64,000 nt of DNA, taken from a bacterium. GTDB taxonomy: Bacteria > JAGOBX01. The DNA is taken from positions 1 to 64,000 of the forward strand of contig JAKPEO010000110.1 in assembly GCA_029551925.1 (NCBI GenBank), given 5' to 3'. Made by a program: the position numbers and the translations under genes. This document shows, one piece after another, positions 5,440-42,248 of the stretch (the stretch's first letter is position 1; every line of letters starts with the position of its first letter). Under the pieces are notes generated by a model that made no database searches, was not told where the DNA came from, and worked only from the letters and a program-made list of their open reading frames with translations.

Positions 5440-7455
5440 TTATTCATCTTCACCTTCGTCATCGCCGCCTTTTTTTGCCGCTTTTCTATTACCACGTAAT
5501 CGTTTTGCCTCGCCTTCAACAGTTTTTCTATATTCTTTATATTCTTCTTTTGCAGTTTTATTGCGATTCTTATAAACAGCGCTGTCTCTAAACGGTTTAT
5601 TCCCTTTTTCGTATTCAGAACCCTTTCCTAATACGCTTACATACATTAAATTTGTATAACTCGTAGCTTTAGGCCAATATAATGGCGCTAATCTCGTATA
5701 ATCTTCAATATCATCCGGATATTCAAATGGCACATTTTTCTTTATATCTTCAAAACTATCAAGTAAAATTTTAAATAAATCTTTTAATGTCTGATCGCCG
5801 CGCTCGATATTATCCTCTGTTATATCAATCGCTTTATCTACGCCGTTAATTTTAAAAATTTCATAATCATTGCCTTTTTCGAATTTTTTGTAAATTTCTA
5901 AATCGCCAAACAGCGGTTGACCATCTATCATTGTAAGCATAACATCTTCTGCTTCATTCAATAGCACTGATTTATACGGGTCATCACTGCGTTTCTTCAA
6001 TACTGTAATATCTGCGCGTTTACCTTCTGTTATCGTTCCTATAAATTCATCATATCCTGAAATAATTGCAGGATTTTCTGTCATCATCAAAACAATTTGT
6101 TTAGGCGATAATAATCCTTTTAATTTTTTATGATTATATTCTGCTACAACCTTTGCTTCAAATAACATACTCGGCGAACCGCTCGGCGCCCAATCTGGCG
6201 CAAATGAAATATGCTGGAACGGCACACCGCGATCTAATGCCCCTTTTATATCTGTTGTTTTATTATAAAGCATCAAATTAGATAATGGCGACCATACTAC
6301 TTTCATACCGGCTTTCGCTATATCATTCCAATCATCACCGCGCACGCCAGTAGAATGTATACCGACAAATTCTTCTCTAAGTAAATTAAATTCCTTCATT
6401 TTTAAATATTCTTCGCGAATATCATCGTCTATGCCTTCGCAAAAATGTATTATATAGCGTTTGACATTTTTATCAAAACCAGAAATAACTTTATCACGCT
6501 TATCTTCTGCGCTGCTACCAACCCACCACATACTTACTGGCATTACTGTTTGTCTAATTGTATTCACGCCCAATAAATTTCCACCGTTTTCTACATTTCT
6601 GCATAAACCGTATGACCCCTGAAAATCGCCCATAAACCCTTGCATTGTAGTGCCGCCACCAATTAAATTGCGAATTTCACCGTATTTCGTAACTTCTATT
6701 AATAAATCCTTTTGCTTTCTACTGAAATAATTATTTATTTTTTTCCAATCAGCATAACGCGGATCGCGCGGCCAAACATTTCTGTTGGGATATATGTCAT
6801 AAGTCGGTTTCCATAGATCAAATGCGTTATAATGAACATGATTGTGCATATCTATAAAACCTGGATATATGTAATTTCCGCTTAAATCAATTAACGGCAC
6901 TTTCGCTGGCACTAAATTTTTTGAATAGTTCGCTACGCGCTTTATCTCGCCAATTAATCGCGTGCCTAATTTGCCCTTCATCTTTTGAGTGCGGTATTCT
7001 ATTATTATTACGCCGTCTTCTATTACTTTCTGCGGAGTAACTATCGTCCCCCTCAATGCTATTGGCTTAGTGAGCTTTTTTTCAACGCGTGGTTTATTAT
7101 CCGCCGGCTTGATTGTCTTTACTAATTCAGCAGTCACAGAATTTTTTAATTTCAAAAAGGTCGGACCATCTACATAATTTCCAGTAAAATCGCTTTCTTT
7201 ATCGCCGGGATTATCTGGCAATTCCTTATATTCTACGTTCGTCTTTGGTATATCTACCTTTTCAGTGACAATTTCTTCTCCTTCTTCATTGTCGCCGGCA
7301 TCTCCTTGTTTCACTTCCGATTTACTGCTCTTGGACTTTAACGATTTTAATGATTCATCTACTTGCTTGCTTTCTTCTTTTTTAGAACAAGAAAATACAA
7401 ACAATAATATTAACAGCGCAATTAATATTTTTTTGACTGTATAAATTTTGTTCAT
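5440..7455 (-). CDS. Lipoprotein of the amidohydrolase superfamily
   Basis: Start supported by AAGGAGA. Residues 1-23 form a signal peptide ending in a lipobox (LLFVFSC, Cys23), so the mature protein should be lipid-anchored outside the cytoplasm. A charged low-complexity linker rich in Lys, Ser and Glu follows. Then comes an imidazolonepropionase/dihydroorotase-type amidohydrolase barrel: the beta-sandwich start RGTIVTPQKVIEDGVIIIE, the metal motif GFIDMHNHVHYN, later HSTGVRGDDW, and the C-terminal GTITEGKRADITVLKK that closes the fold. The C-terminal 160 residues are an unrecognised extension ending in a basic then acidic tail. The substrate is unknown; hydrolysis of a C-N bond in a periplasmic compound is inferred. 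Confidence 0.82.
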   Translation of the reverse strand: MNKIYTVKKILIALLILLFVFSCSKKEESKQVDESLKSLKSKSSKSEVKQGDAGDNEEGEEIVTEKVDIPKTNVEYKELPDNPGDKESDFTGNYVDGPTFLKLKNSVTAELVKTIKPADNKPRVEKKLTKPIALRGTIVTPQKVIEDGVIIIEYRTQKMKGKLGTRLIGEIKRVANYSKNLVPAKVPLIDLSGNYIYPGFIDMHNHVHYNAFDLWKPTYDIYPNRNVWPRDPRYADWKKINNYFSRKQKDLLIEVTKYGEIRNLIGGGTTMQGFMGDFQGSYGLCRNVENGGNLLGVNTIRQTVMPVSMWWVGSSAEDKRDKVISGFDKNVKRYIIHFCEGIDDDIREEYLKMKEFNLLREEFVGIHSTGVRGDDWNDIAKAGMKVVWSPLSNLMLYNKTTDIKGALDRGVPFQHISFAPDWAPSGSPSMLFEAKVVAEYNHKKLKGLLSPKQIVLMMTENPAIISGYDEFIGTITEGKRADITVLKKRSDDPYKSVLLNEAEDVMLTMIDGQPLFGDLEIYKKFEKGNDYEIFKINGVDKAIDITEDNIERGDQTLKDLFKILLDSFEDIKKNVPFEYPDDIEDYTRLAPLYWPKATSYTNLMYVSVLGKGSEYEKGNKPFRDSAVYKNRNKTAKEEYKEYRKTVEGEAKRLRGNRKAAKKGGDDEGEDE

Positions 7456-7483
7456 TTTTTAGTCTCCTTAATTAGTTAGTTTT

Positions 7484-8161
7484 TTAATCAAATGCTGAAT
7501 CATACAAATCTTTAAATTTTAAAAAATCCGGCTCAAATATTTTAGACGAAATTTTATCGTTTATTCGAAACACCTTAAAATTTATATTAAATTCCTGCTT
7601 TTGATTCTTTTCGGTTATCACGCTTTTTATCGTCTTTAAATCATAATTATTTGCAAATACTATCTCTATATTTTCTCGTTTATTTTTAGATTCTAAATTT
7701 ATTATATAATCATTATTTTTTTTGACAATATTTTTTATATCGTAATCTTTTAGTAATTCGCTTAATTTATAATATTCTAAAATTTGATTTTGCATTTTAA
7801 AATTCTTTAATTCATTTGATGAAAGTTGTTTTACATTATTCACAATCAGCATATTTGAAGAATGATAATGCACATAAAAAGTATCGCCTAAAATCAAAGT
7901 GGTCATTGTATCGCTACCGTCTTCCACTATTTTTTTGATTTTTTCTCTGTCTTTCCAATAAAACACTTTTAGATTTACAGAACGATTATCCTGATCATAT
8001 CCGTTTGTATCTATATCTGTATATAATGTTTTTATACTTTTTAATTTTTGTTCTACTGATTTTATAAATTGATCAACTTTTATTTTTTCTTCGGCATATA
8101 GACAATCAAAACTTAAAAAAAAAATAATGAAGAATATTAATACTAAATATTTTACTTGCAT
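7484..8161 (-). CDS. LolA-like outer-membrane lipoprotein carrier
   Basis: 225 residues with an N-terminal signal peptide (cleavage expected near FDCLYAEE). The mature part has the alternating beta pattern of LolA/LolB-fold proteins: VDQFIKSVEQKLKSIKTLYTDI at the start, then VNLKVFYWKDREKIKKIV, then a C-terminal KSVITEKNQKQEFNINFKVF strand. LolA ferries lipoproteins across the periplasm. Family assignment rests on layout and weak motifs, so it could instead be another DUF4292/MucB-like periplasmic protein. It lies just upstream (by transcription) of a lipoprotein gene, which fits an envelope role. Confidence 0.6.
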   Translation of the reverse strand: MQVKYLVLIFFIIFFLSFDCLYAEEKIKVDQFIKSVEQKLKSIKTLYTDIDTNGYDQDNRSVNLKVFYWKDREKIKKIVEDGSDTMTTLILGDTFYVHYHSSNMLIVNNVKQLSSNELKNFKMQNQILEYYKLSELLKDYDIKNIVKKNNDYIINLESKNKRENIEIVFANNYDLKTIKSVITEKNQKQEFNINFKVFRINDKISSKIFEPDFLKFKDLYDSAFD

Positions 8162-8954: not shown

Positions 8955-9989
8955 TTAACTCTTATATTCGATTTTTGCATTTTGTTTGTGTTTGTCTAAT
9001 AAATACATCAACTTCAATCTGTCTTTTACTTTATCAAAAGCATCTGTGTATGACGGTTTGATTTCCGAAACCTTTAAGATATGATAACCGCGCTCTGATT
9101 TCACTATTTCGCTTAATTCATTTTCTTTTAATTTTACTATCGTTTTAGTAATAGTGTCATTTTCATTGCCCTTTACTTCTAAATATCCGATAAAACCGCC
9201 GTTCGTTTTACTTTCACATTCTGAATATTCTTTGGCAATCTTTTCAAAATTCGCGCCGGCTTTTAATTTTTTTTCCGCAGCCTTAATCTTTGCTAATTTT
9301 TTGTTTACTTCTTCTGGTTTTGAATCATTACCTACCGCTACTAATATATGCTGAACTTTGCGACGCTCCGGATGTGTAAATATCGCTTTCTGCTTTTCAT
9401 AATACGCTATTAAATATGTATCTGAATATTCTGGATTTTTTTCAAGTGTCCATTGAGTATATTTTATAACCATTAATTTATCCTTTACTTTTTCAGATAA
9501 TTGCTTCTCGTCTTTTAGTCCTATTTTTTTCAAAAAATCATTGAAATTATTCGCGCTTGTATCTGCTAATTGCACTTGATTCTTTAACATCTGTATCTCG
9601 CTTTTGATATCCGCTTCTGAAACTTCAATATTATTCTTTTTCGCTGACTGTAATAATAACTTATCTATCACTGCCTGCTCTATTATATGCGCTTGTATTG
9701 ATTGTTTTATCTCGTTTTTTACATCATCTGTCGGCATACTATTATAAACCATCTGCCAACGCATATATTCTTGTTCTAATATCGCATTTATAAACGGTTC
9801 TATGTCTCTATACAATATATCTTCTCCATTAACTTTTACTACTACTGAATCAGATGAATAGTTTACGCTGCCAATATTATTTGCTTCTGTATTTTGCTGA
9901 GTTTCTTTTATCTGCTCGTTTTTTTTAGAGCAGCCAACTATTATAATAAATCCCAAACACGCTATTAAAATTAATAATTTTTTCTTCAT
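8955..9989 (-). CDS. SurA/PrsA-type peptidyl-prolyl cis-trans isomerase lipoprotein
   Basis: A signal peptide with lipobox (LGFIIIVGC) precedes a SurA_N-like helical chaperone segment (residues about 45-180) and a parvulin rotamase domain: RRKVQHILVAVG, AKEYSECESKTNGGFIGYLE and ERGYHILKVSEIKPS. It is predicted to be anchored in an envelope membrane and to help fold secreted or outer-membrane proteins. I use the ATG at 9989, preceded by AGTGAGA, rather than the in-frame GTG nine bases earlier. Its length of about 344 residues is usual for PrsA/SurA-like proteins. Confidence 0.88.
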   Translation of the reverse strand: MKKKLLILIACLGFIIIVGCSKKNEQIKETQQNTEANNIGSVNYSSDSVVVKVNGEDILYRDIEPFINAILEQEYMRWQMVYNSMPTDDVKNEIKQSIQAHIIEQAVIDKLLLQSAKKNNIEVSEADIKSEIQMLKNQVQLADTSANNFNDFLKKIGLKDEKQLSEKVKDKLMVIKYTQWTLEKNPEYSDTYLIAYYEKQKAIFTHPERRKVQHILVAVGNDSKPEEVNKKLAKIKAAEKKLKAGANFEKIAKEYSECESKTNGGFIGYLEVKGNENDTITKTIVKLKENELSEIVKSERGYHILKVSEIKPSYTDAFDKVKDRLKLMYLLDKHKQNAKIEYKS

Positions 9990-10069
9990 TATTCTCACTT
10001 CACAAAAAAATATTTAAAAATTTATTTTATTTTAATTCGCCAAAAAAAACAAGACATTTTTAATATTTT

Positions 10070-31152: not shown

Positions 31153-32943
31153 ATGAAAATAATAAGACGGTTTCAATTTTTGCTAATTTTTCTAATATTT
31201 TCAATAAATCTAAATGCTTCTGATTCTGATTCTGATACGCTAAATTTTTTTGAATTAATAATTCATCAAAAATCAAAAGACAATATTAATAAAATAATTT
31301 CAAATAATCAGACATCAGAAAATACATTTTTTTATGATTTGAATAAACTTCCGAATTTTAATATTTTAAATGAAACTATTTTCGGTATTAATAGCATCGG
31401 TCAAGATAAAATAAAATACCGCGGAAAAACCGTAAAATTATTAGTTAATAATATGCCGTCAATAGAATCAATGCAAGTATTCAATTGTCAAATTATCAAT
31501 TCTATAAATCATTACAATAATAGTGATTTAGAATTAGTAAATTCTGCGTTAGGCGTAATCTATGGCGCTAATGCATTAAGCGCTATCATAAACATAAAAA
31601 ATACCGCACCGTCAAATAAAAATTACAGTGTAAATTATAGTTATGGTTCATTTAATTCTAATTCATTAAATTTATCATTAGCCGCGCCTATAAAAAATAT
31701 TTATTATTTAACAACTGATATTTCAGGTCTACAAACTGACGGATATAATGACTTTTCAAAAATGCAAAATTTAAATACTCAAATCAAATTTGGTTATCAT
31801 AATAATAAAACTTTAATAGAATTATCAAATTTATATTCAAAAGAACAAACAGAAGATTTAATTGAAATTGTAGAATGGCAACGCGACAGACAAAATACAA
31901 ATTTGCGAATATATAATAAAATCGACAATTTGTTTTTTTCGTTCGGTTTATCTTATACTTCCGGCATACATAAAAGTTTTGAAATTTTAAATAATTACAA
32001 TCAGAAATTTCAATCTTATGATTTTGAAAAATCGACAAGATTAGATTTTTATTATAATTGTAGCGCAAATTTAAAAATGCAAGCAGGCGCCGAATTTACT
32101 AAATACGGCGGTGAAATACCAAATCAGCCGTTTGCTAAACGCGGCGAATTTTACTCAAAAGATAATGCTGTGTTCTATTTATTTAATTTCCATTTTATTG
32201 AGCGTTTGGAATTACAAACAGGCGGTAGATATAATGACAATTCCAAATACGGCGAATTATTTATCGACAGTCATAAATTAATTTTCAAGCCAAATCAAAA
32301 TAATATATTTTATTTTTTAACAGAGAAAAATTTCAAAAATCCATCTGTCTTTCAGACACAAATAAATAATTTTAAAAGCAATTCGGCATTATTACCTGAA
32401 ACTTTAAGGATATACGAATTAAATTACAAAAAGATATTTTCCAAAACTTTTAATCTAATAAGTTCAATATTCAAAAACATCGGTAAAAATCATATTGATA
32501 TTACTACTATTCCGTTTACAAATTCAGATAAAAAATACATTCATTACGGCGCAGATTTTTTTATTGATTATAATTATAAAAAATTTGAAAATATATTCGG
32601 CTATCAATATCTATATTCCGCATGGGATACGCGATTATTAAATAAACACAAATTTTTTTTTGCATGCGCTTATAATCATCAAAAAAATCTGAAATTTTCC
32701 ATTGATGCCCAATATGTAAATAAATATTATGGTTCAGCATACAAACAAAATCGAATGCCTGATTTCTTATTATTAAATTCAGCAATTACTTATAAAATTA
32801 AAGAACCACTAATTTTAAAAATTTCAGTAAATAATATTTTAGATAAAAATTATGCACTGATGTATGACGAACAATATGGTAAAGCGGCAATATCAATGCC
32901 CGGCATAAATATTTTTGCTTCATTAACTGCAGCTAATTTTTAA
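31153..32943 (+). CDS. TonB-dependent outer-membrane receptor
   Basis: 596 residues, short for the family (usually 650-800). Signal peptide MKIIRRFQFLLIFLIFSINLNAS. A reduced plug domain is visible: LLVNNMPSIES and LGVIYGANALSAIINIKN, which match the D/N-G-Y/P and YGa-AisGvInI plug signatures. The rest is a series of amphipathic strands (LQTGGRYNDNSKYGELF, LKISVNNILDKNYALMYD), the latter being the usual C-terminal TonB receptor motif. It ends in Phe, as outer-membrane barrels do. The TonB box is not clear. The ligand is unknown (siderophore, cobamide or a glycan are possible). No tonB/exbBD genes are in the window. Confidence 0.85.
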   Translation: MKIIRRFQFLLIFLIFSINLNASDSDSDTLNFFELIIHQKSKDNINKIISNNQTSENTFFYDLNKLPNFNILNETIFGINSIGQDKIKYRGKTVKLLVNNMPSIESMQVFNCQIINSINHYNNSDLELVNSALGVIYGANALSAIINIKNTAPSNKNYSVNYSYGSFNSNSLNLSLAAPIKNIYYLTTDISGLQTDGYNDFSKMQNLNTQIKFGYHNNKTLIELSNLYSKEQTEDLIEIVEWQRDRQNTNLRIYNKIDNLFFSFGLSYTSGIHKSFEILNNYNQKFQSYDFEKSTRLDFYYNCSANLKMQAGAEFTKYGGEIPNQPFAKRGEFYSKDNAVFYLFNFHFIERLELQTGGRYNDNSKYGELFIDSHKLIFKPNQNNIFYFLTEKNFKNPSVFQTQINNFKSNSALLPETLRIYELNYKKIFSKTFNLISSIFKNIGKNHIDITTIPFTNSDKKYIHYGADFFIDYNYKKFENIFGYQYLYSAWDTRLLNKHKFFFACAYNHQKNLKFSIDAQYVNKYYGSAYKQNRMPDFLLLNSAITYKIKEPLILKISVNNILDKNYALMYDEQYGKAAISMPGINIFASLTAANF

Positions 32944-32987
32944 TTTAGGTCTTATTTTTTTACGATTTGATTTTAAAATTAAAAAAA

Positions 32988-33031
32988 AAGTGGATAGTTA
33001 ATAATTTTTAAAAATTATTAACTATCCACTT
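32988..33031. terminator. Bidirectional terminator between the receptor gene and the atp operon
   Basis: A perfect 44-base palindrome (AAGTGGATAGTTAATAATTT and onward, dyad centre 33009/33010) lies between convergent genes. An A-run precedes it (so T-run for the minus strand) and a T-rich stretch follows it. Confidence 0.9.
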
Positions 33032-33068
33032 CCTTTTATTTATTATTTTATATAAAATTACTATAAAC

Positions 33069-33524
33069 TTATTTTTCTTGATTTTTGTAATTAGTCACTG
33101 TTGAAAGCCGGACTAACGCGCGCTGCAACGCCGCTTCTGCACGAATAATATCTATACTTTCGTCTCTACTGCGCAATCTGTCTTCTGCTCGTTTTTTCGC
33201 TGATTCTGCGCGTCCTACATCTATTTTATCTGCTGGTTCTGCCGCGTGAGTAATAACATTTATCGCGTCAGGCATGACTTCGCAAAATCCACCTAACACT
33301 GTAAAAAATATATATTTTTCATCTTTTTCTTCTTTTTTAATTTTTAGTTCGCCAAGTTTTAAACTACTCAAAAACGGAGTATGTCCGGGCAAAACAGTAA
33401 ACATCCCAGCTTCGCCCGGAAAATTAGCAGCAGATATATTATCTGAAAAAACGATATTTCCGTCTTTCGTAACTATCTCTAATTTTATATAATCATATAT
33501 CGTTTTTTGTTTGGTTTCTGTCAT
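33069..33524 (-). CDS. atpC: F1Fo ATP synthase epsilon subunit
   Basis: 151 residues, last gene of the atp operon. The N-terminal beta-sandwich shows FPGEAGMFTVLPGHTPFLSSL, the epsilon hallmark, followed by EEKYIFFTVLGGFCEVMPDAINV-type strands. The C-terminal two helices are Ala/Arg-rich (AESAKKRAEDRLRS, AALQRALVRL) and act as the regulatory arm of the central stalk. The ribosome binding site is GGGAG. It starts 2 bases after atpD and ends 38 bp before the terminator palindrome. Confidence 0.95.
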   Translation of the reverse strand: MTETKQKTIYDYIKLEIVTKDGNIVFSDNISAANFPGEAGMFTVLPGHTPFLSSLKLGELKIKKEEKDEKYIFFTVLGGFCEVMPDAINVITHAAEPADKIDVGRAESAKKRAEDRLRSRDESIDIIRAEAALQRALVRLSTVTNYKNQEK

Positions 33525-33526
33525 TA

Positions 33527-34954
<1,428 letters not shown>

Positions 34955-35001
34955 TTATACGCAATATATTAAAGATTCAATTACTAAATTTGATTTTTTT
35001 A

Positions 35002-35892
35002 TTAAATACCTTTTAAAGATTCCTTCATCATATTTATAGTCGCATTTATTAATTCCATAAGACCATTATCATATTTTTCCAAATCAACACTGCCTTTTTC
35101 TTCGCCGCTTATATCAATTCTATTTTCCATAGATTTTTTTAATTTAAAAATATTTTGGTTCTGTTTATAAAAACCATACGATATTTTTTTATTGCCTTTA
35201 AAACCAACTTCATCCCCGCGTAAATCTCCATTTAAAATAATATCAAATGATTTTAATACAGGCGCGCCTTTTTTACCTTTATCAATGTAAAACGAAACTT
35301 TTATTGCTCCATTTGCTTGTGCTGCGTTTGTAAGTTCCGCTAAATTACTTATAAGTTTTATAGCTTTTAAAGGATTAGTGGGAAATAAGCCAAGCCCTTC
35401 AGCTGACATTTTTATTCCTTTAGTAGTGACTCCATCGCTAAAAACACTACCTTTATAACCTTTTGTTGTTTTTTCAAAATCAAGGTCTAAAGATTTATAA
35501 TATTCAAGTTCAGTCAAATTTTCTTTTGGAACCACTTCAAAACCAGCATCTTCGAATGCTTTTTCAACTAACTCATATACTCTATTTATTACAGAATTAT
35601 AATAATCATTTCCGAGATATATGGTTGAAGTTTTTGTTGTAAGCGTATTGGTCGCTCTCTGTGCAAATACACTGCTTGACACTTCTTTGCTTTGCATAAA
35701 TTCACCAGCAAATTCTACAATTAACAACTTACTGACATTCCATTTTTTCAATTTTTCAAAATTATTGTCTGTTAATTTTTTTGTCATTTTAGATATATCA
35801 TCAAAATCAGCAGCATTATACTCGTAATCAGCGGCAAAAACATTCAAAGAAATAAAAAAAACTAACAAAAATAATACTATTTTCTTTTTCAT
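35002..35892 (-). CDS. Secreted protein of unknown function inserted in the atp operon
   Basis: 296 residues with a clear signal peptide (MKKKIVLFLLVFFISLNVFA, cleavage before ADYEY). The mature part has the repeated pattern VSKLLIVEFAGEFMQS, then VYELVEKAFEDAGFEVVPKE and later VLKSFDIILNGDLRGDEVGF, an alpha/beta layout resembling periplasmic proteins that contain a CsgG-like or TolB-N-like nucleotide-independent fold. I do not recognise a named family. It is in the same orientation as, and tightly between, atpG (59 bp) and atpD (65 bp), so it should be co-transcribed with the ATP synthase. No membrane anchor or lipobox is visible. Confidence 0.8.
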   Translation of the reverse strand: MKKKIVLFLLVFFISLNVFAADYEYNAADFDDISKMTKKLTDNNFEKLKKWNVSKLLIVEFAGEFMQSKEVSSSVFAQRATNTLTTKTSTIYLGNDYYNSVINRVYELVEKAFEDAGFEVVPKENLTELEYYKSLDLDFEKTTKGYKGSVFSDGVTTKGIKMSAEGLGLFPTNPLKAIKLISNLAELTNAAQANGAIKVSFYIDKGKKGAPVLKSFDIILNGDLRGDEVGFKGNKKISYGFYKQNQNIFKLKKSMENRIDISGEEKGSVDLEKYDNGLMELINATINMMKESLKGI

Positions 35893-35951
35893 TTTATATT
35901 TTTACACACTCCTATAAAAAAATTTAAAACTTTTTTCACTTTATTTTTTTC

Positions 35952-36851
35952 TTATTGCTCTAACGCATTTGCGCCGCCGACAATTTCAGATATTTCTTTT
36001 GTAATCGCTGCTTGACGCATTCTGTTATATTGTATTGTCAAAATTCTCAAACGCTCAACGCAATTGTTAGTGGCATTATCCATTGCTGTCATTCTTGACG
36101 CTAATTCGCCGACATACGATTCTAATAACGCCGAATAAATTTCAGATGAAATATACATTGGCAATAATTGTTCTAAAATAGCTACTTCTGACGGCTCGTA
36201 TAAATAATCTATTATTTCGCCTTCCATTTTATTTTTAAATTCAGCATCTTGCTGAATTTTTTCATCGATATTATCAACAACAGGCGCTAATTTTTTAAAA
36301 GTAATATTCTGTTTTAATATTGATTTATAATGATTATACAATACAAGTATACTACCTACATTTCCTTGCTTATAATCATCTATTAATTCATTTGCAATCT
36401 TATCTGCTACTTTAATATCAAATGTTCGATAGACGCCGACAAATGATTTTTCTACTTGATAATTCCGTTTGGTAAGATATGTCGCACCTTTTCTACCAAT
36501 CACCCAAAGTTTATAATTCTTATCTTGCTGCTTTAATTCGTTAATATATCTAACGAGTTCTTTTAAAAGTAAAGAATTAAAAGCACCGCACAATCCTCTA
36601 TCAGATGTCACAACAACTATCCCAATAGTATTAGATGAATTTTTATCCAATAAAAAATGCTCTTTAATATCACAACGCAGAGCTAATGATAAAGTAATAT
36701 CTTCAATCTTTTTCTTAAAATTTCGATATTTTAAGGTCTGCTGCTCAGCTCTTTTAAACTTCGCAGAAGCAACCATTTTCATAGCACGCGTAATCTGCTG
36801 GGTATTTTTTATTGCCTTTATGCGAACCCTCAAATCTTTTAAACCGGGCAT
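35952..36851 (-). CDS. atpG: F1Fo ATP synthase gamma subunit
   Basis: 299 residues. Central rotor shaft of F1. The N-terminus PGLKDLRVRIKAIKNTQQIT and MKMVASAKFKRAEQ, the mid SDRGLCGAFNSLLLKE, and the C-terminal SRMTAMDNATNN(C)...YNRMRQAAITKEISEIVGGA are textbook gamma motifs at both ends of the coiled coil. Good site AAGGTGG. It follows atpA by 19 bases. Confidence 0.97.
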   Translation of the reverse strand: MPGLKDLRVRIKAIKNTQQITRAMKMVASAKFKRAEQQTLKYRNFKKKIEDITLSLALRCDIKEHFLLDKNSSNTIGIVVVTSDRGLCGAFNSLLLKELVRYINELKQQDKNYKLWVIGRKGATYLTKRNYQVEKSFVGVYRTFDIKVADKIANELIDDYKQGNVGSILVLYNHYKSILKQNITFKKLAPVVDNIDEKIQQDAEFKNKMEGEIIDYLYEPSEVAILEQLLPMYISSEIYSALLESYVGELASRMTAMDNATNNCVERLRILTIQYNRMRQAAITKEISEIVGGANALEQ

Positions 36852-36870: not shown

Positions 36871-38388
36871 TTATAAATTTCCTATTCTCTGCGTCTTTTT
36901 AAATTCTGTAATTACATCATTCATTTTCTTCATTAAAGCATCAGATAATTCTTTTTTCTCTTTTATTTCATTTACAATAACGGAATATTTATCTTTGAAG
37001 TATGAAAGTAAATGGTCAATAAATTTTTGTATTTCTCGCACTTCTATATCATCTAAAAATCCATTAATTGCTGTATAAATAGTAATAACTTCTATTTCCA
37101 TAGGCAGCGGATTAAATTGCCCTTGTTTCAATACTTCTGTCAATCGCTCGCCGCGGTGTAGCTGCGCTTGCGTTGCTTTATCCAAATCTGCACCGAATTT
37201 TGCGAACGCCGCTAATTCGCGATACTGCGCTAAACTTAATTTTAATTTACCAGCAACTTGTTTCATTGCTTTTACTTGCGCATTACCGCCAACTCGCGAA
37301 ACTGACAAACCTACATTTATAGCTGGTCTTTGCCCTGAATAAAACAAACTGCTTTCCAAAAATATCTGTCCGTCTGTTATAGAAATAACATTTGTCGGTA
37401 TATATGCAGACACATCACCTGCTTGCGTTTCTATTACTGGCAACGCTGTTAATGACCCGCCGCCTTTTTCATTGCTGTATTTGCACGCTCTTTCTAATAA
37501 TCTTGAATGCAAATAAAATACATCGCCAGGATACGCTTCGCGGCCCGGTGGTCTTCTTAATAATAATGACATCTGTCTATATGCCGCAGCATGCTTTGAT
37601 AAATCATCGTATATTATCAACACATGCTGTCCGCGTTCAGCAAAATATTCGCCTATCGCACATCCAGCATACGGCGCTATATATTGTAAAGGCGCTGGCT
37701 CTGATGCAGTAGAACATACTACTATCGAATAAGCCATCGCTCCATATTCTTCTAAAATGTTGACAACATTAGCGACAGTAGATTTTTTCTGCCCTATCGC
37801 AACATAAATACAAATAACATCCTGTCCTTTTTGATTTATTATTGTATCTATTGCTATTGCTGTTTTACCTGTTTGTCTGTCGCCGATAATTAATTCACGC
37901 TGTCCGCGACCAATTGGTATCATACCATCAATCGCTTTAATACCTGTGTATAACGGTTCTTTAACCGGTTGACGCTCAATTACACCTGGCGCTATTTTTT
38001 CTATATATGAATATGCTTCAGCTTTTATCTCGCCTTTACCGTCTATCGGCTGACCGAGCGCATCTACTACTCTACCAATCATAGCTTTGCCAGTTGGCAC
38101 TTCCGCAATTTTACCAGTTAAGCGCACTCTATCACCTTCGCGGATTTGCTTAAAATCGCCTAATATCGCGACGCCTATATTTCCTTCTTCCAAATTCAAT
38201 ACTATGCCTTTTATATTATTAGGAAATTCTAATAATTCACCAGACATAGCATTTGATAAGCCGCTCACGCGCGCTATCCCGTCATTTATTTGCAGGACAA
38301 TACCTTCTTCCGCTGCGTCAACGCTCGTCCGATAATTTTTTAATTTACTTTCAATTATTGAACTTATTTCTTCCGGCTTTATCTGCAT
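36871..38388 (-). CDS. atpA: F1Fo ATP synthase alpha subunit
   Basis: 505 residues. Regulatory nucleotide-binding subunit of F1. Walker [20 protein letters not shown] (with Gln in place of a second catalytic residue, as in all alpha subunits), Walker [14 protein letters not shown], and the alpha signature [14 protein letters not shown] with the arginine finger. Strong site GGAGG. It lies 27 bases after atpH. Confidence 0.98.
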
Positions 38389-38415: not shown

Positions 38416-38973
38416 TTAATTTAACAAAAATTGTTTTTCTAAAATCTCAAATTCGCGCGCAACCGCGCAATTTATTGTATTATCGCCGTATTTAATTATA
38501 AATCCAGCGACAATTTCAGGATTCAATTCCTGTTTCAATAATATCTTCTTCCCCGTTTTTTTAGTTAGTATTTCTACTATTTTATTAACTTCTGCTTCTG
38601 TTAATTTCACAACACTTTGAACTGTGGCTGTCCGAACATTTTTTATGCGATTGTATCGATAATAAAACGATTTAAATATATAGCGAATAATGTTTCCGCG
38701 GCGATTATCAAAAAAAATCATAAAAAAATCTGTTATTAACGGCATTACTCCTAATCTTTTAAAAATTTCAGAAATCGTTTCCTTCTTGATTTTTTTAGAT
38801 AATGTCATATCAGAAACAAAATTCAATAAACGATTATTATCAGCGCGAAATATCTTTTTCAATTCGCGGATTTGCGCTTCCACTTCGTCTAATTTGTTCT
38901 GTTTTTGCGCTATATCTATTAGCGCATCTGTATATCGCGTGGCAATTTTATAATTGAGAATATTATTTTCCAA
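38416..38973 (-). CDS. atpH: F1Fo ATP synthase delta subunit
   Basis: 185 residues, peripheral stalk cap binding the alpha N-terminus. N-terminal helix bundle YKIATRYTDALIDIAQKQNKLDEVE and the C-terminal delta signature RTATVQSVVKLTEAEVNKIVEIL, then LNPEIVAGFIIKYGD. The start codon is TTG at 38973, directly abutting the atpF stop (TAATTG), with GGGGGC eight bases upstream. Confidence 0.92.
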   Translation of the reverse strand: MENNILNYKIATRYTDALIDIAQKQNKLDEVEAQIRELKKIFRADNNRLLNFVSDMTLSKKIKKETISEIFKRLGVMPLITDFFMIFFDNRRGNIIRYIFKSFYYRYNRIKNVRTATVQSVVKLTEAEVNKIVEILTKKTGKKILLKQELNPEIVAGFIIKYGDNTINCAVAREFEILEKQFLLN

Positions 38974-39456
38974 TTATTTGCCCCCTATATTTATTAAATA
39001 TTCTTTAACTAATTCTCTATGACGCGCTTCGTCTATTTCTTTACGAACAATCTTTTCTGCTAATACAATAGCGTATTTCAAAATTTCTTTTTCTAAATTT
39101 TTCTTAGCGTTTTCGTATTCGTATTGTATCATCTTTTCAGCTTTTAACTGCATATATTCTGCATTCTTCTTTGCTTCTTCTATTATCTTGCGTTTTTCTT
39201 CTTCTGCAAGCTGACGTGCTTCGTTGCGTATCTGTATCGCAGCATTCAATTCTTTTTGAATACGCTCTGTATATTCTTCTTTCATTTCTTTTAAACGCTG
39301 TTCTTCTTCTTTCGCACGAGTATAAGACTCTTTTATTTTTTCAGCACGTTCATCAAGTATTTTAGTTATTGGTTTAACTAATAACTTTGAAAAAAAATAT
39401 AACAACACCAAAAAACTAATAGTATTAGCCAATATGGTAAAATTAATGGTTACCAT
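38974..39456 (-). CDS. atpF: F1Fo ATP synthase b subunit
   Basis: 160 residues. One N-terminal membrane helix (residues 4-24, TINFTILANTISFLVLLYFF) followed by a long, highly charged coiled coil (EKIKESYTRAKEEEQRLKEM and onward), the peripheral stalk. Only one b gene is present, so the stator should be a b homodimer. Site GAGGA. It directly joins atpH. Confidence 0.95.
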   Translation of the reverse strand: MVTINFTILANTISFLVLLYFFSKLLVKPITKILDERAEKIKESYTRAKEEEQRLKEMKEEYTERIQKELNAAIQIRNEARQLAEEEKRKIIEEAKKNAEYMQLKAEKMIQYEYENAKKNLEKEILKYAIVLAEKIVRKEIDEARHRELVKEYLINIGGK

Positions 39457-39506: not shown

Positions 39507-39785
39507 TTAAACAACAAATATTAATAACAATGCAATAACCAACGAATAAATCCCTGTCGATTCAGATACAGCTTGACCTACAAGCATTGTTCTTGTAAGC
39601 AACCCTGCTTCTTTTGGCGTGCGCGCAATACCTTCGCACGCTTTACCAGCAGCATACCCTTCGCCAACACCTGGTCCAATTGCTCCAAATCCCATACAGA
39701 TACCAGCGCCTAAATACGCCGCAGCTTTCATTATTGTCTTTGAAAGAGACACATCGCCAAATAAATGTTTAACTAATTCTTCCAT
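39507..39785 (-). CDS. atpE: F1Fo ATP synthase c subunit, single hairpin, Na+-type two-carboxylate site
   Basis: 92 residues, two membrane helices (about 17-43 and 64-90) joined by the polar loop ARTP. The ion site residues are all visible: Glu42 in PGVGEGYAAGK on helix 1, and Glu75, Ser76 and Tyr80 in GQAVSESTGIYSLVIAL on helix 2. Glu-Ser-Thr-x-x-Tyr is the Na+ coordination signature known from Ilyobacter-type c rings. In those rings the helix-1 residue is Gln; here it is Glu, as in the two-carboxylate ring described for Fusobacterium nucleatum. Na+ coupling is therefore a well-founded inference, not proven. The site is GGAGGG. It lies between the duplicated c gene and atpF. Confidence 0.95.
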   Translation of the reverse strand: MEELVKHLFGDVSLSKTIMKAAAYLGAGICMGFGAIGPGVGEGYAAGKACEGIARTPKEAGLLTRTMLVGQAVSESTGIYSLVIALLLIFVV

Positions 39786-39806
39786 TTATAAACCCTCCTA
39801 AAAAAT

Positions 39807-40334
39807 TTATTTTGTCATATAAATTAAACACAAACTTACTACAAAAGCATACACACTTGTTGATTGCGCTGTCGCTTGACCAATTAACATTGTTTTCATT
39901 ATACTACCGCTCTCATCTGGCGTACGCGCTACTGCTTTACATGCTTCTTTCGAAACATAGCCGTCACCCAATCCCGGACCAAATGCGCCAAATCCCATAC
40001 ATATCCCAGCAGAAATAATAGCAATCATATGCGGAAACATTGAAATCATATTCATTCCTGTTACTGTTTGATCTAAAAAAATCAATAGTATCGCAGTTAC
40101 AAGCGCAAATATAGCTGGTGATTCTGTCACCGACTGACCTATCAACATTGTTTTTAATAAATCATTTGCGACCTTCGGCTGACGAGCCATACCTTCTAAT
40201 GCGCCGCCAGCAGTTAATCCGATGCCTGTGCCTGCACCTATCGCGCCAAATCCCATACATAAGCCAGAAGCAAAGGCTCCGCTTATTTGTATCATATATT
40301 CTAACACTTCTGGATCTTTTAAAAATTCAAGCAT
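39807..40334 (-). CDS. atpE: Duplicated (four-helix) c subunit with one altered ion site
   Basis: 175 residues from the ATG at 40334 (AGGAG eight bases upstream; an in-frame TTG two codons earlier is too close to that site). Two c-type hairpins in tandem. Hairpin 1: AGTGIGLTAGGALEGMARQP then GQSVTESPAIFALV, with the essential Glu (codon 40122-40124) and Ser present, but Ile at the helix-1 site position (40221-40223) and Phe instead of Tyr. Hairpin 2: PGLGDGYVSKEACKAVARTP then GQATAQSTSVYAF, with Asp at the helix-1 position (39963-39965), Gln in place of the essential Glu (codon CAA, 39864-39866), and Ser and Tyr kept. A fused, V-ATPase-like rotor subunit is clear. How hairpin 2 binds an ion is inference. 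It precedes the single atpE, as in Acetobacterium woodii. Confidence 0.93.
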   Translation of the reverse strand: MLEFLKDPEVLEYMIQISGAFASGLCMGFGAIGAGTGIGLTAGGALEGMARQPKVANDLLKTMLIGQSVTESPAIFALVTAILLIFLDQTVTGMNMISMFPHMIAIISAGICMGFGAFGPGLGDGYVSKEACKAVARTPDESGSIMKTMLIGQATAQSTSVYAFVVSLCLIYMTK

Positions 40335-40374
40335 TAGCAATTCTCCTTATTATTTTATTTCTCCATTCTAAGTT

Positions 40375-41442
40375 TTATGCCTTGTGCTCTGTATGTTCTT
40401 CTTCGTCGCCCGCAATCCAAACAGCTATATATACCAATGCAAGCATTGAAAAAACAAACGCTTGTATTGTTCCGACAAATATTCCGAAAAATCCGAATAA
40501 ACCAATAGGTAAAAATACATTCGATATTAAATACGAAATAACTATCATTATAATAGCGCCACCTTTTATATTGCCAAATAAACGAAAAGAATGAGATATT
40601 ACTTTTCCAATTTCACCAATAATATTCAGCGGCAACATCACAATAAAAGGATTACTTAATTCTTTAAAAACACCGATTATTTTATGTTTTTTAATAGCCG
40701 AAAACATCACTATTACAAATACCATCAAGCCCAGCCCCAATGTCGTATTCAAATCCTGCGTTGGTTCTTCTAATGTCATCCATTCCGGTAAAAATGTATG
40801 GTATTCTACTGCATAATTTTTGTTATTTCTTTTATTATATACATCAGTTATATATTTTGCAAATATCAATTTTTTATTTTTTTGATTATATTCTTGCCAT
40901 TCCTTTTTTAATTCTTTATGAGCATTTATATCTAAATGCTCACCGCTTTTTATATCTATTATTACTTCTTTATCTACTATATGCCAGATAGAAGGTATTA
41001 TCCCTATCCAGTTTGACAGACAAATAAAAACAAATAATGAAAAAATTAACGCTAAATATTTTCTACTTTGCTTTTTGCCTAATGTTGCGCGCGTTAATTC
41101 ATCAAACATTTCTACTATTATTTCAGCAAATGCTTGCAATCTACCGGGTATTGCTTGCAGATTTTTTGAAACTTTATAAGCAAAAAAAATCAATAGCAAT
41201 ATAATTACCCAACTAATAACAAATGATACTTGATTTAATTCAAAAAATTCAAATGGCACTTCGTGTTCAGGCATTGTTGCATAATGCGATAAATCCGCTC
41301 CTAAAAATACCTCACGCAAATTCCATCTTGATACTTCGCCAATCTTCATCATCGGTCGCGCGTCTTTTGAGGAAATATGCGCTATTATCAAATGAATAAT
41401 TAAAACTGCAACTAAAATTCCTATTATTTTACTTTTAGTCAC
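40375..41442 (-). CDS. atpB: F1Fo ATP synthase a subunit
   Basis: 355 residues, ion-channel half of Fo. The essential Arg287 is in SHSFRLFGN; EPTQDLNTTLGLGL and the last helix IQAFVFSMLALVYIAVWI are typical. The start is GTG (41442) after GGAGAAG and overlaps the atpI-like gene by 8 bases. A long polar segment (about residues 153-228, between the second and third membrane segments) seems roughly twice as long as the matching loop in Escherichia coli and is rich in Lys, Glu and Tyr. It pairs with two kinds of c subunit. Confidence 0.96.
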   Translation of the reverse strand: MTKSKIIGILVAVLIIHLIIAHISSKDARPMMKIGEVSRWNLREVFLGADLSHYATMPEHEVPFEFFELNQVSFVISWVIILLLIFFAYKVSKNLQAIPGRLQAFAEIIVEMFDELTRATLGKKQSRKYLALIFSLFVFICLSNWIGIIPSIWHIVDKEVIIDIKSGEHLDINAHKELKKEWQEYNQKNKKLIFAKYITDVYNKRNNKNYAVEYHTFLPEWMTLEEPTQDLNTTLGLGLMVFVIVMFSAIKKHKIIGVFKELSNPFIVMLPLNIIGEIGKVISHSFRLFGNIKGGAIIMIVISYLISNVFLPIGLFGFFGIFVGTIQAFVFSMLALVYIAVWIAGDEEEHTEHKA

Positions 41443-41878
41443 TTTTCTTCTCCGTTTTTTTATAAAATGATTCTATAAAGTATAAAATATATATTGTAAT
41501 CTGGACTGCAAACAGCCCTGCTATCGCCGCAAATATATTTATCGTTTTTTTGTTCATCGCGGCTATTGATAAAATTATCAATATCAAAATATATCTAACA
41601 AAAAAATTTTTTACTAATAACCCGCCGCTCACGGCATTTGTAGAATTTGAATCTTTCGTTATTTCTCCAAATTTCTCTATTTTATTCGATAATATCCGAA
41701 AATTCAGCAACGAAGCAACAGCGCCTATTAAAAATCCTTTTAAAATTTGTTTAAGGAACTGCAGATTATTATAAAAAATTATTATTAATATCACTGACAC
41801 TGCAATAATAAAAATTATCGCTGAAAAAAAAATAACATCTCTAAACTGTTTATACGATAAATCCGTTAGATTTAACAT
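41435..41878 (-). CDS. AtpI-like small membrane protein
   Basis: 147 residues with four hydrophobic helices (about 14-35, 43-62, 88-108 and 112-135), in the place where atpI/DUF-type ATP synthase assembly proteins normally lie. The first helix pair contains polar GFLIGAVASLLNFRIL, similar to the AtpI/'ATP synthase I chain' group. AtpI-like proteins help c-ring assembly, in some cases for Na+ enzymes. Start overlaps the UPF0434 stop (TAATG), and its end overlaps atpB by 8 bases. Confidence 0.8.
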   Translation of the reverse strand: MLNLTDLSYKQFRDVIFFSAIIFIIAVSVILIIIFYNNLQFLKQILKGFLIGAVASLLNFRILSNKIEKFGEITKDSNSTNAVSGGLLVKNFFVRYILILIILSIAAMNKKTINIFAAIAGLFAVQITIYILYFIESFYKKTEKKSD

Positions 41879-42174
41879 TAAATCTTTTTTATATACGCAT
41901 TTATTTCTTTTGAAATATCAATTATTCCTTCCATTGGCACAGATTCTTCTATCAACATAATTGGTATATCTTCGCGTATCGGATACATAAATTTCTTATC
42001 TGCGCGCAGCAATCCGCCATCTATTTTTTCAGTTATTTTATCGCCGTTTCTATTTTTTAATTTTTGCGTCTCTATTAGTTGATTTACTTTTGATATTAAT
42101 TCGTCATTGGCGAGATATACATCTTCTTTTGTTTCAGGGCAGGCTAATATATCTAACAATTCTTTGTCTATCAT
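41878..42174 (-). CDS. UPF0434/Trm112-like protein
   Basis: 98 residues. N-terminal LLDILACPETKEDVYL and C-terminal LLRADKKFMYPIREDIPIMLIEE are the Trm112/YcaR hallmark. A long insert between them replaces the normal short spacer. Trm112 proteins activate methyltransferases; bacterial UPF0434 roles are unclear. Only one of the usual Cys ligands is seen, so zinc binding is doubtful. Site GAGGA. Its stop overlaps the atpI-like start. Confidence 0.82.
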   Translation of the reverse strand: MIDKELLDILACPETKEDVYLANDELISKVNQLIETQKLKNRNGDKITEKIDGGLLRADKKFMYPIREDIPIMLIEESVPMEGIIDISKEINAYIKKI

Positions 42175-42248
42175 ATTTATCCTCGTTCAAAAATAAATAT
42201 TGAAGTTAAAATTTTATTTTTATTCAGAAAAAATGTCAATATATTTTT

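Follow-up and report, generated by a model that had tools for sequence, protein, structure and literature searches.

Gene X, encoding an exported protein between atpG and atpD, is a probable passenger insertion in a bacterial atp operon

The atp operon stands in textbooks as an example of conserved gene order. Proteins with the fold of HpaA, PelC, LptE, PqiC, the TolB N-domain (TolB-N) and CsgG commonly act in outer-membrane machines, as rings, plugs or adaptors. According to PMC5709465, the standard bacterial atp order is a-c-b-delta-alpha-gamma-beta-epsilon, and it is constant in the majority of bacterial genomes.

The window analysed here, a stretch of 64,000 nucleotides of contig JAKPEO010000110.1 (assembly GCA_029551925.1) from an uncultured bacterium, contains an atp operon that includes a gene, here called X, for a protein without an assigned family. 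The run of genes begins with a Trm112-like gene, named after a motif, and continues with an atpI-like gene, atpB, two atpE genes, atpF, atpH, atpA, atpG, X, atpD and atpC (Table 1). The original prediction had placed X between atpG and atpD on the strand of the atp genes and with short gaps, and exactly this is found: 59 bp separate it from atpG and 65 bp from the ATG of atpD. Gene order and strand otherwise equal those of the standard operon of PMC5709465, compared with which the operon of the window has an additional gene at the gamma-beta junction and a second gene for the c subunit. The two c-subunit genes adjoin each other (39507-40340), and one of them is of double length. Beyond the operon, at 31153-32943, lies a convergent 596-aa signal-bearing ORF that by eye has the look of a TonB-dependent receptor and has no Pfam match at 1e-5.

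Table 1. Features of the atp operon of the window and of the junctions of gene X
Feature	Position	Strand	Basis or remark
terminator after atpC	32986..33033	-	hairpin and T-run; -28.7 kcal/mol, z -9.65
atpC (F1 epsilon)	33069..33524	-	PF02823, PF00401
atpD (F1 beta)	33527..34936	-	PF00006, 4.2e-72; ATG at 34936 chosen by ribosome-binding site
X-atpD junction	34937..35001	-	ribosome-binding site, no terminator
gene X	35002..35892	-	296 aa secreted protein; HpaA/PelC/TolB-N/CsgG-like fold predicted
atpG-X junction	35893..35951	-	ribosome-binding site; promoter match at chance level; terminator absent
atpG (F1 gamma)	35952..36851	-	PF00231, 2.6e-92
atpA (F1 alpha)	36871..38388	-	PF00006, PF00306
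atpH (F1 delta)	38416..38973	-	PF00213
atpF (Fo b)	38974..39456	-	PF00430
atpE, single-hairpin c subunit	39507..39785	-	PF00137, one stretch
second atpE, double-length c subunit	39807..40340	-	PF00137, two stretches
atpB (Fo a)	40375..41442	-	PF00119
probable atpI-like membrane protein	41435..41878	-	position and hydrophobicity only
Trm112-like small protein, first gene of run	41878..42174	-	motif
promoter-like site before run	42211..42239	-	TTGACA-17-TAAAAT; 11/12, consensus match only

Both junctions of X were searched for terminator-like sites, and none was found; the ribosome-binding sites read GGAG upstream of X and GGAGG upstream of atpD. The sole promoter-like match at these junctions is a 9/12 site at 35918-35891 that overlaps the start of X. 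It could be supposed from this site that X is driven by its own promoter inside the atpG end, apart from the atp genes, and that its position is a neutral accident, but such sites occur at chance frequency (10 found, 12.6 expected from shuffles), and transcripts started at the atp promoter would in any case continue through X, as no terminator precedes it, so that this explanation is hardly credible. X is probably co-transcribed with the atp operon, since its junctions have no terminator and only a chance-level promoter match, and a strong terminator follows atpC. By its strand, its short gaps and the lack of its own terminator, X has the features of a passenger gene. Its composition deviates slightly from the window mean (GC 0.288 vs 0.318, GC3 0.193 vs 0.255, both lower in X), and its codon score, which ranks 28th when 40 genes are ordered from low to high, is unremarkable within the window.

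X was found in ten genomes (the window's own, G000, and G001, G231, G351, G281, G279, G211, G041, G471 and G579). It is present in 2 of the 41 genomes of a first set of relatives, in which only G001 is close to G000, being of the same family, and the others are related at domain level; in 4 of 386 genomes of a larger set (G000, G001, G471, G579); and in 7 of the 340 genomes of the G041 phylum, one of which is marginal and was left out. In the phyla of G579 and G471, one of five and one of ten genomes, respectively, have it. The copy of G041 is broken by frameshifts or stops and was counted as present; the marginal match, in G350 (40 residues, E 8.1e-4; 29.5% over residues 175-262), was considered dubious and stands outside the ten. 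The contig with X is labelled 'Candidatus Dependentiae bacterium' in G001 (L003) and 'Elusimicrobia bacterium' in G041 (L004). When ten window proteins were compared by tblastn with the surroundings of X in the nine other genomes, some of them short (L017 4.9 kb, L003 6.5 kb), X was recovered in each and an atp gene in none, and in G231, G351, G281, G211 and G001 atpG and X are on different contigs. X is thus linked to atp genes in one of the ten X-bearing genomes and not in its relatives. Nor does it occur only together with an F-type ATP synthase, as four of the ten genomes (G041, G279, G471, G579) have no AtpG match, which in G471 (100% complete) and G579 (94%) was sought with a single-protein query only.

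With nine of ten X loci found apart from atp genes and AtpG undetected in four of the genomes, X does not follow the ATP synthase, and a family-wide partnership of the two is not supported. The suggestion of a functional partner, which had been raised along with the position, is therefore unsupported. A partnership in this organism only could still be imagined, in which X would be periplasmic and touch the outer face of Fo (the a/c ring) or couple the state of the envelope to the level of ATP synthase; its place inside the operon with short gaps would fit, as would the unusual double-length second c subunit, by which Fo may be unusual. However, besides the missing linkage in the other nine genomes, that of the close relative G001 included, no sequence relation of X to any ATP synthase subunit was found, and such a partnership is very improbable.

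The other possibility that had been named, an insertion, is supported. The atp operon of G001 (L022) has the order F-H-A-G-D-C with 150 bp between atpG and atpD and no X in between, and the X of this genome (69% identity) is on a separate contig, between exbB/exbD and opp genes. There, exbB, exbD and a TonB-like ORF (L003, 3-1510) are divergent from X at a distance of 196 bp. The empty-site comparison yielded no synteny, as the G000 relatives of the genes flanking X in G001 (oppC, exbBD) were found in unrelated neighbourhoods. The placement of X is best read as a lineage-specific insertion at the atpG-atpD junction, the direction of which is fixed by one close relative. With only two genomes of the family compared, polarity is weakly fixed, and it could also be that the linkage is old, with a long-standing co-expression role of X with atp in the family of G000 and G001, and that the atp operon of G001 has lost its X. 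The atpG-atpD gap of G001 indeed matches the start region of the X of that genome in 22 bp (91%) and 18 bp (94%), at E 0.001 with the low-complexity filter off, but both matches are AT-rich, one is in opposite orientation, and the linkage is present in no other X-bearing genome. An X remnant in this gap was rejected for that reason, the matches being only short and AT-rich, and an old linkage is improbable. Regarding the original prediction, conservation in the close relative does not hold, as the arrangement is absent in G001, but the signals at X itself do not speak against it, there being no separate terminator for X and a promoter match only at chance level.

The 296-residue product had been read as a protein with a signal peptide, and judged by eye, the N-terminus, MKKKIVLFLLVFFISLNVFA|AD, does read as a signal-peptidase-I signal peptide. 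There is no cysteine in X, and thus it is no lipoprotein. Other genomes have homologues at 69%, 65% and 33-43% identity in which the reading frame is intact, only the G041 copy being broken, and X is therefore a real gene; the full-length alignment of seven homologues has 32 invariant columns. The profile search that had been proposed with the original prediction was run with X and its homologues against Pfam and NCBIfam and gave no family above cut-off, PDB sequence searches gave chance hits only, and X is assigned to no family. The CsgG and LpoB-like proteins of the X-bearing genomes were tried as relatives and rejected, as the profile comparison was not significant (hhalign with CsgG, prob 0.4). 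An origin from a mobile element was likewise rejected, X being absent from 72,556 plasmid and 50,697 phage records and none being confirmed in viral contigs. The X family is rare, patchily distributed, unnamed, and normally encoded alone.

Two AlphaFold models of X were built from 3-4 rows each and are of low confidence (mean pLDDT 47.4 and 45.4, pTM 0.53-0.54), and the middle stretch is modelled at low confidence only. Foldseek with the first model gave no significant match (best E 0.93); with the model of mature X it gave HpaA (E 1.7e-3, prob 1.00) and, among the top rows, TolB, GNA1162, LpoB, PelC and FlgT. VIA-align ranked HpaA first for both models (Z 9.4 with 142 aligned residues and rmsd 3.7; Z 11.0 with 149 and rmsd 3.0), followed in case of the second model by FlgT (9.5), PelC (9.4), PqiC (8.3), LptE (8.2), TolB (7.9) and CsgG (7.6). 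Scores of about 7 are reached by ribosome hibernation factors as well, so part of this signal is a common arrangement. It is likely, on these low-confidence models, that X has the alpha/beta fold of HpaA, PelC, LptE, PqiC, the TolB N-domain and CsgG (PDB 8t8d, 5t0z, 5iva, 8q2c, 4pwz and 4q79, respectively), and the protein is probably periplasmic or associated with the outer membrane. From fold and signal peptide, a role as exported adaptor in an outer-membrane machine may be considered; PelC lipoproteins of this fold group form a periplasmic ring of twelve, as stated in PMC12141448.

Taken together, it is likely that X is an exported protein of the HpaA/PelC/LptE/PqiC/TolB-N/CsgG fold whose gene is merely carried along by the atp operon as a passenger, and that it has no action in the ATP synthase. 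An X gene, normally encoded alone, would have entered the atpG-atpD junction in the lineage of G000, would now be transcribed from the atp promoter, and may in this way have gained strong and steady expression while needing no separate promoter, all of this without acting in ATP synthase.

How unusual an interruption of the operon is depends on the group of bacteria that is considered. In bacteria at large, represented by the 28 best-scoring AtpG loci beyond G000 and G001, a gamma-beta gap of at least 300 bp, taken as interruption, was found in 2 of 26 measurable loci, the other 24 being short, and an alpha-gamma gap of that size in 2 of 27, which fits the majority-constant order given in PMC5709465. 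The statement that the operon is normally unbroken thus holds for bacteria at large but not for the G041 phylum, in which AtpG is found in 298 of 334 genomes: among 70 of these 298, picked non-randomly by score or by hand, the gamma-beta gap is at least 300 bp in 24 of 69 loci and the alpha-gamma gap in 43 of 59, with neither in 12 of 59. All 43 alpha-gamma inserts contain an epimerase-like ORF, and the gamma-beta inserts contain a PilZ-like ORF (21/24) or an outer-membrane-barrel-like ORF (3/24). Pfam matches of example inserts were PilZ (2.1e-16), Epimerase (9.6e-48) and OMP_b-brl (6.7e-5, below its cut-off); no X homologue was found among these inserts by the same search. X is therefore one of several different cargoes at the junctions flanking gamma, to which the inserts of this phylum also belong, and the sole one of its kind found at such a junction. 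Among the open-licence papers listed by literature searches, none deals with atp operons that carry X-like, PilZ or epimerase cargo.

Individual loci illustrate the variety. On L036 of the G041 phylum, a gene for an NAD-dependent epimerase (7082-7993) is located between atpA and atpG, and a PilZ-domain gene (5873-6208), seen in 21 of 69 measured loci and sometimes as two in tandem, between atpG and atpD. Three genomes (L035, 7112-7810; L050; L053) have a signal-bearing outer-membrane-barrel-like ORF in the latter position, on L050 and L053 preceded by an ORF with a 'VYVDSGAS' motif, presumably retropepsin-like. L035 (G211) also has a Yip1-domain membrane protein (PF04893, 4.8e-10) between atpD and atpC (9295-10023), and L128 (G394) carries two lipoprotein-like ORFs at the atpA-atpG junction and, following atpG, a signal-bearing ORF of 368 aa, with no Pfam match. 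It is conceivable, although rather unlikely, that envelope and c-di-GMP-related genes have landed repeatedly at the junctions flanking gamma in several deep-branching phyla, which would cover X, the barrels, PilZ and NAD-dependent epimerase of the G041 phylum, and the lipoprotein-like and signal-bearing ORFs of G394, and that X is a pmf-linked envelope factor, for which the divergent exbB/exbD neighbours in G001 give a hint. If this were true, the building of the envelope would be tied to the expression of ATP synthase.

The position of X is a true observation and probably a passenger insertion, and it gives no ground for postulating a new ATP synthase part. As such it warns against inferring function from position alone, and X together with the cargo of the G041 phylum (an epimerase in the sampled majority, 43/59) provides natural tests of the assumption that genes sharing an operon must also work together; this wider pattern of gamma-adjacent cargo is a more interesting lead than X itself. 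Among the known systems, the atp operons of the G041 phylum ('Elusimicrobia bacterium' MAG) resemble that of the window in carrying additional genes next to gamma, at the same junctions, but their cargo is PilZ, epimerase and outer-membrane barrels, among which no X homologue was found; X was found in one atp operon only. With the HpaA/PelC/LptE/PqiC/TolB-N/CsgG group, X has no detectable sequence relation (about 10-13% identity in structural alignments), and it differs from the outer-membrane lipoproteins HpaA, PelC and CsgG in having no lipobox cysteine, but like the members of this group it is exported, and in its low-confidence models a predicted core of strand-helix-strand, further strands and a C-terminal helix aligns with theirs over 112-149 residues (Z 7.6-11.0).
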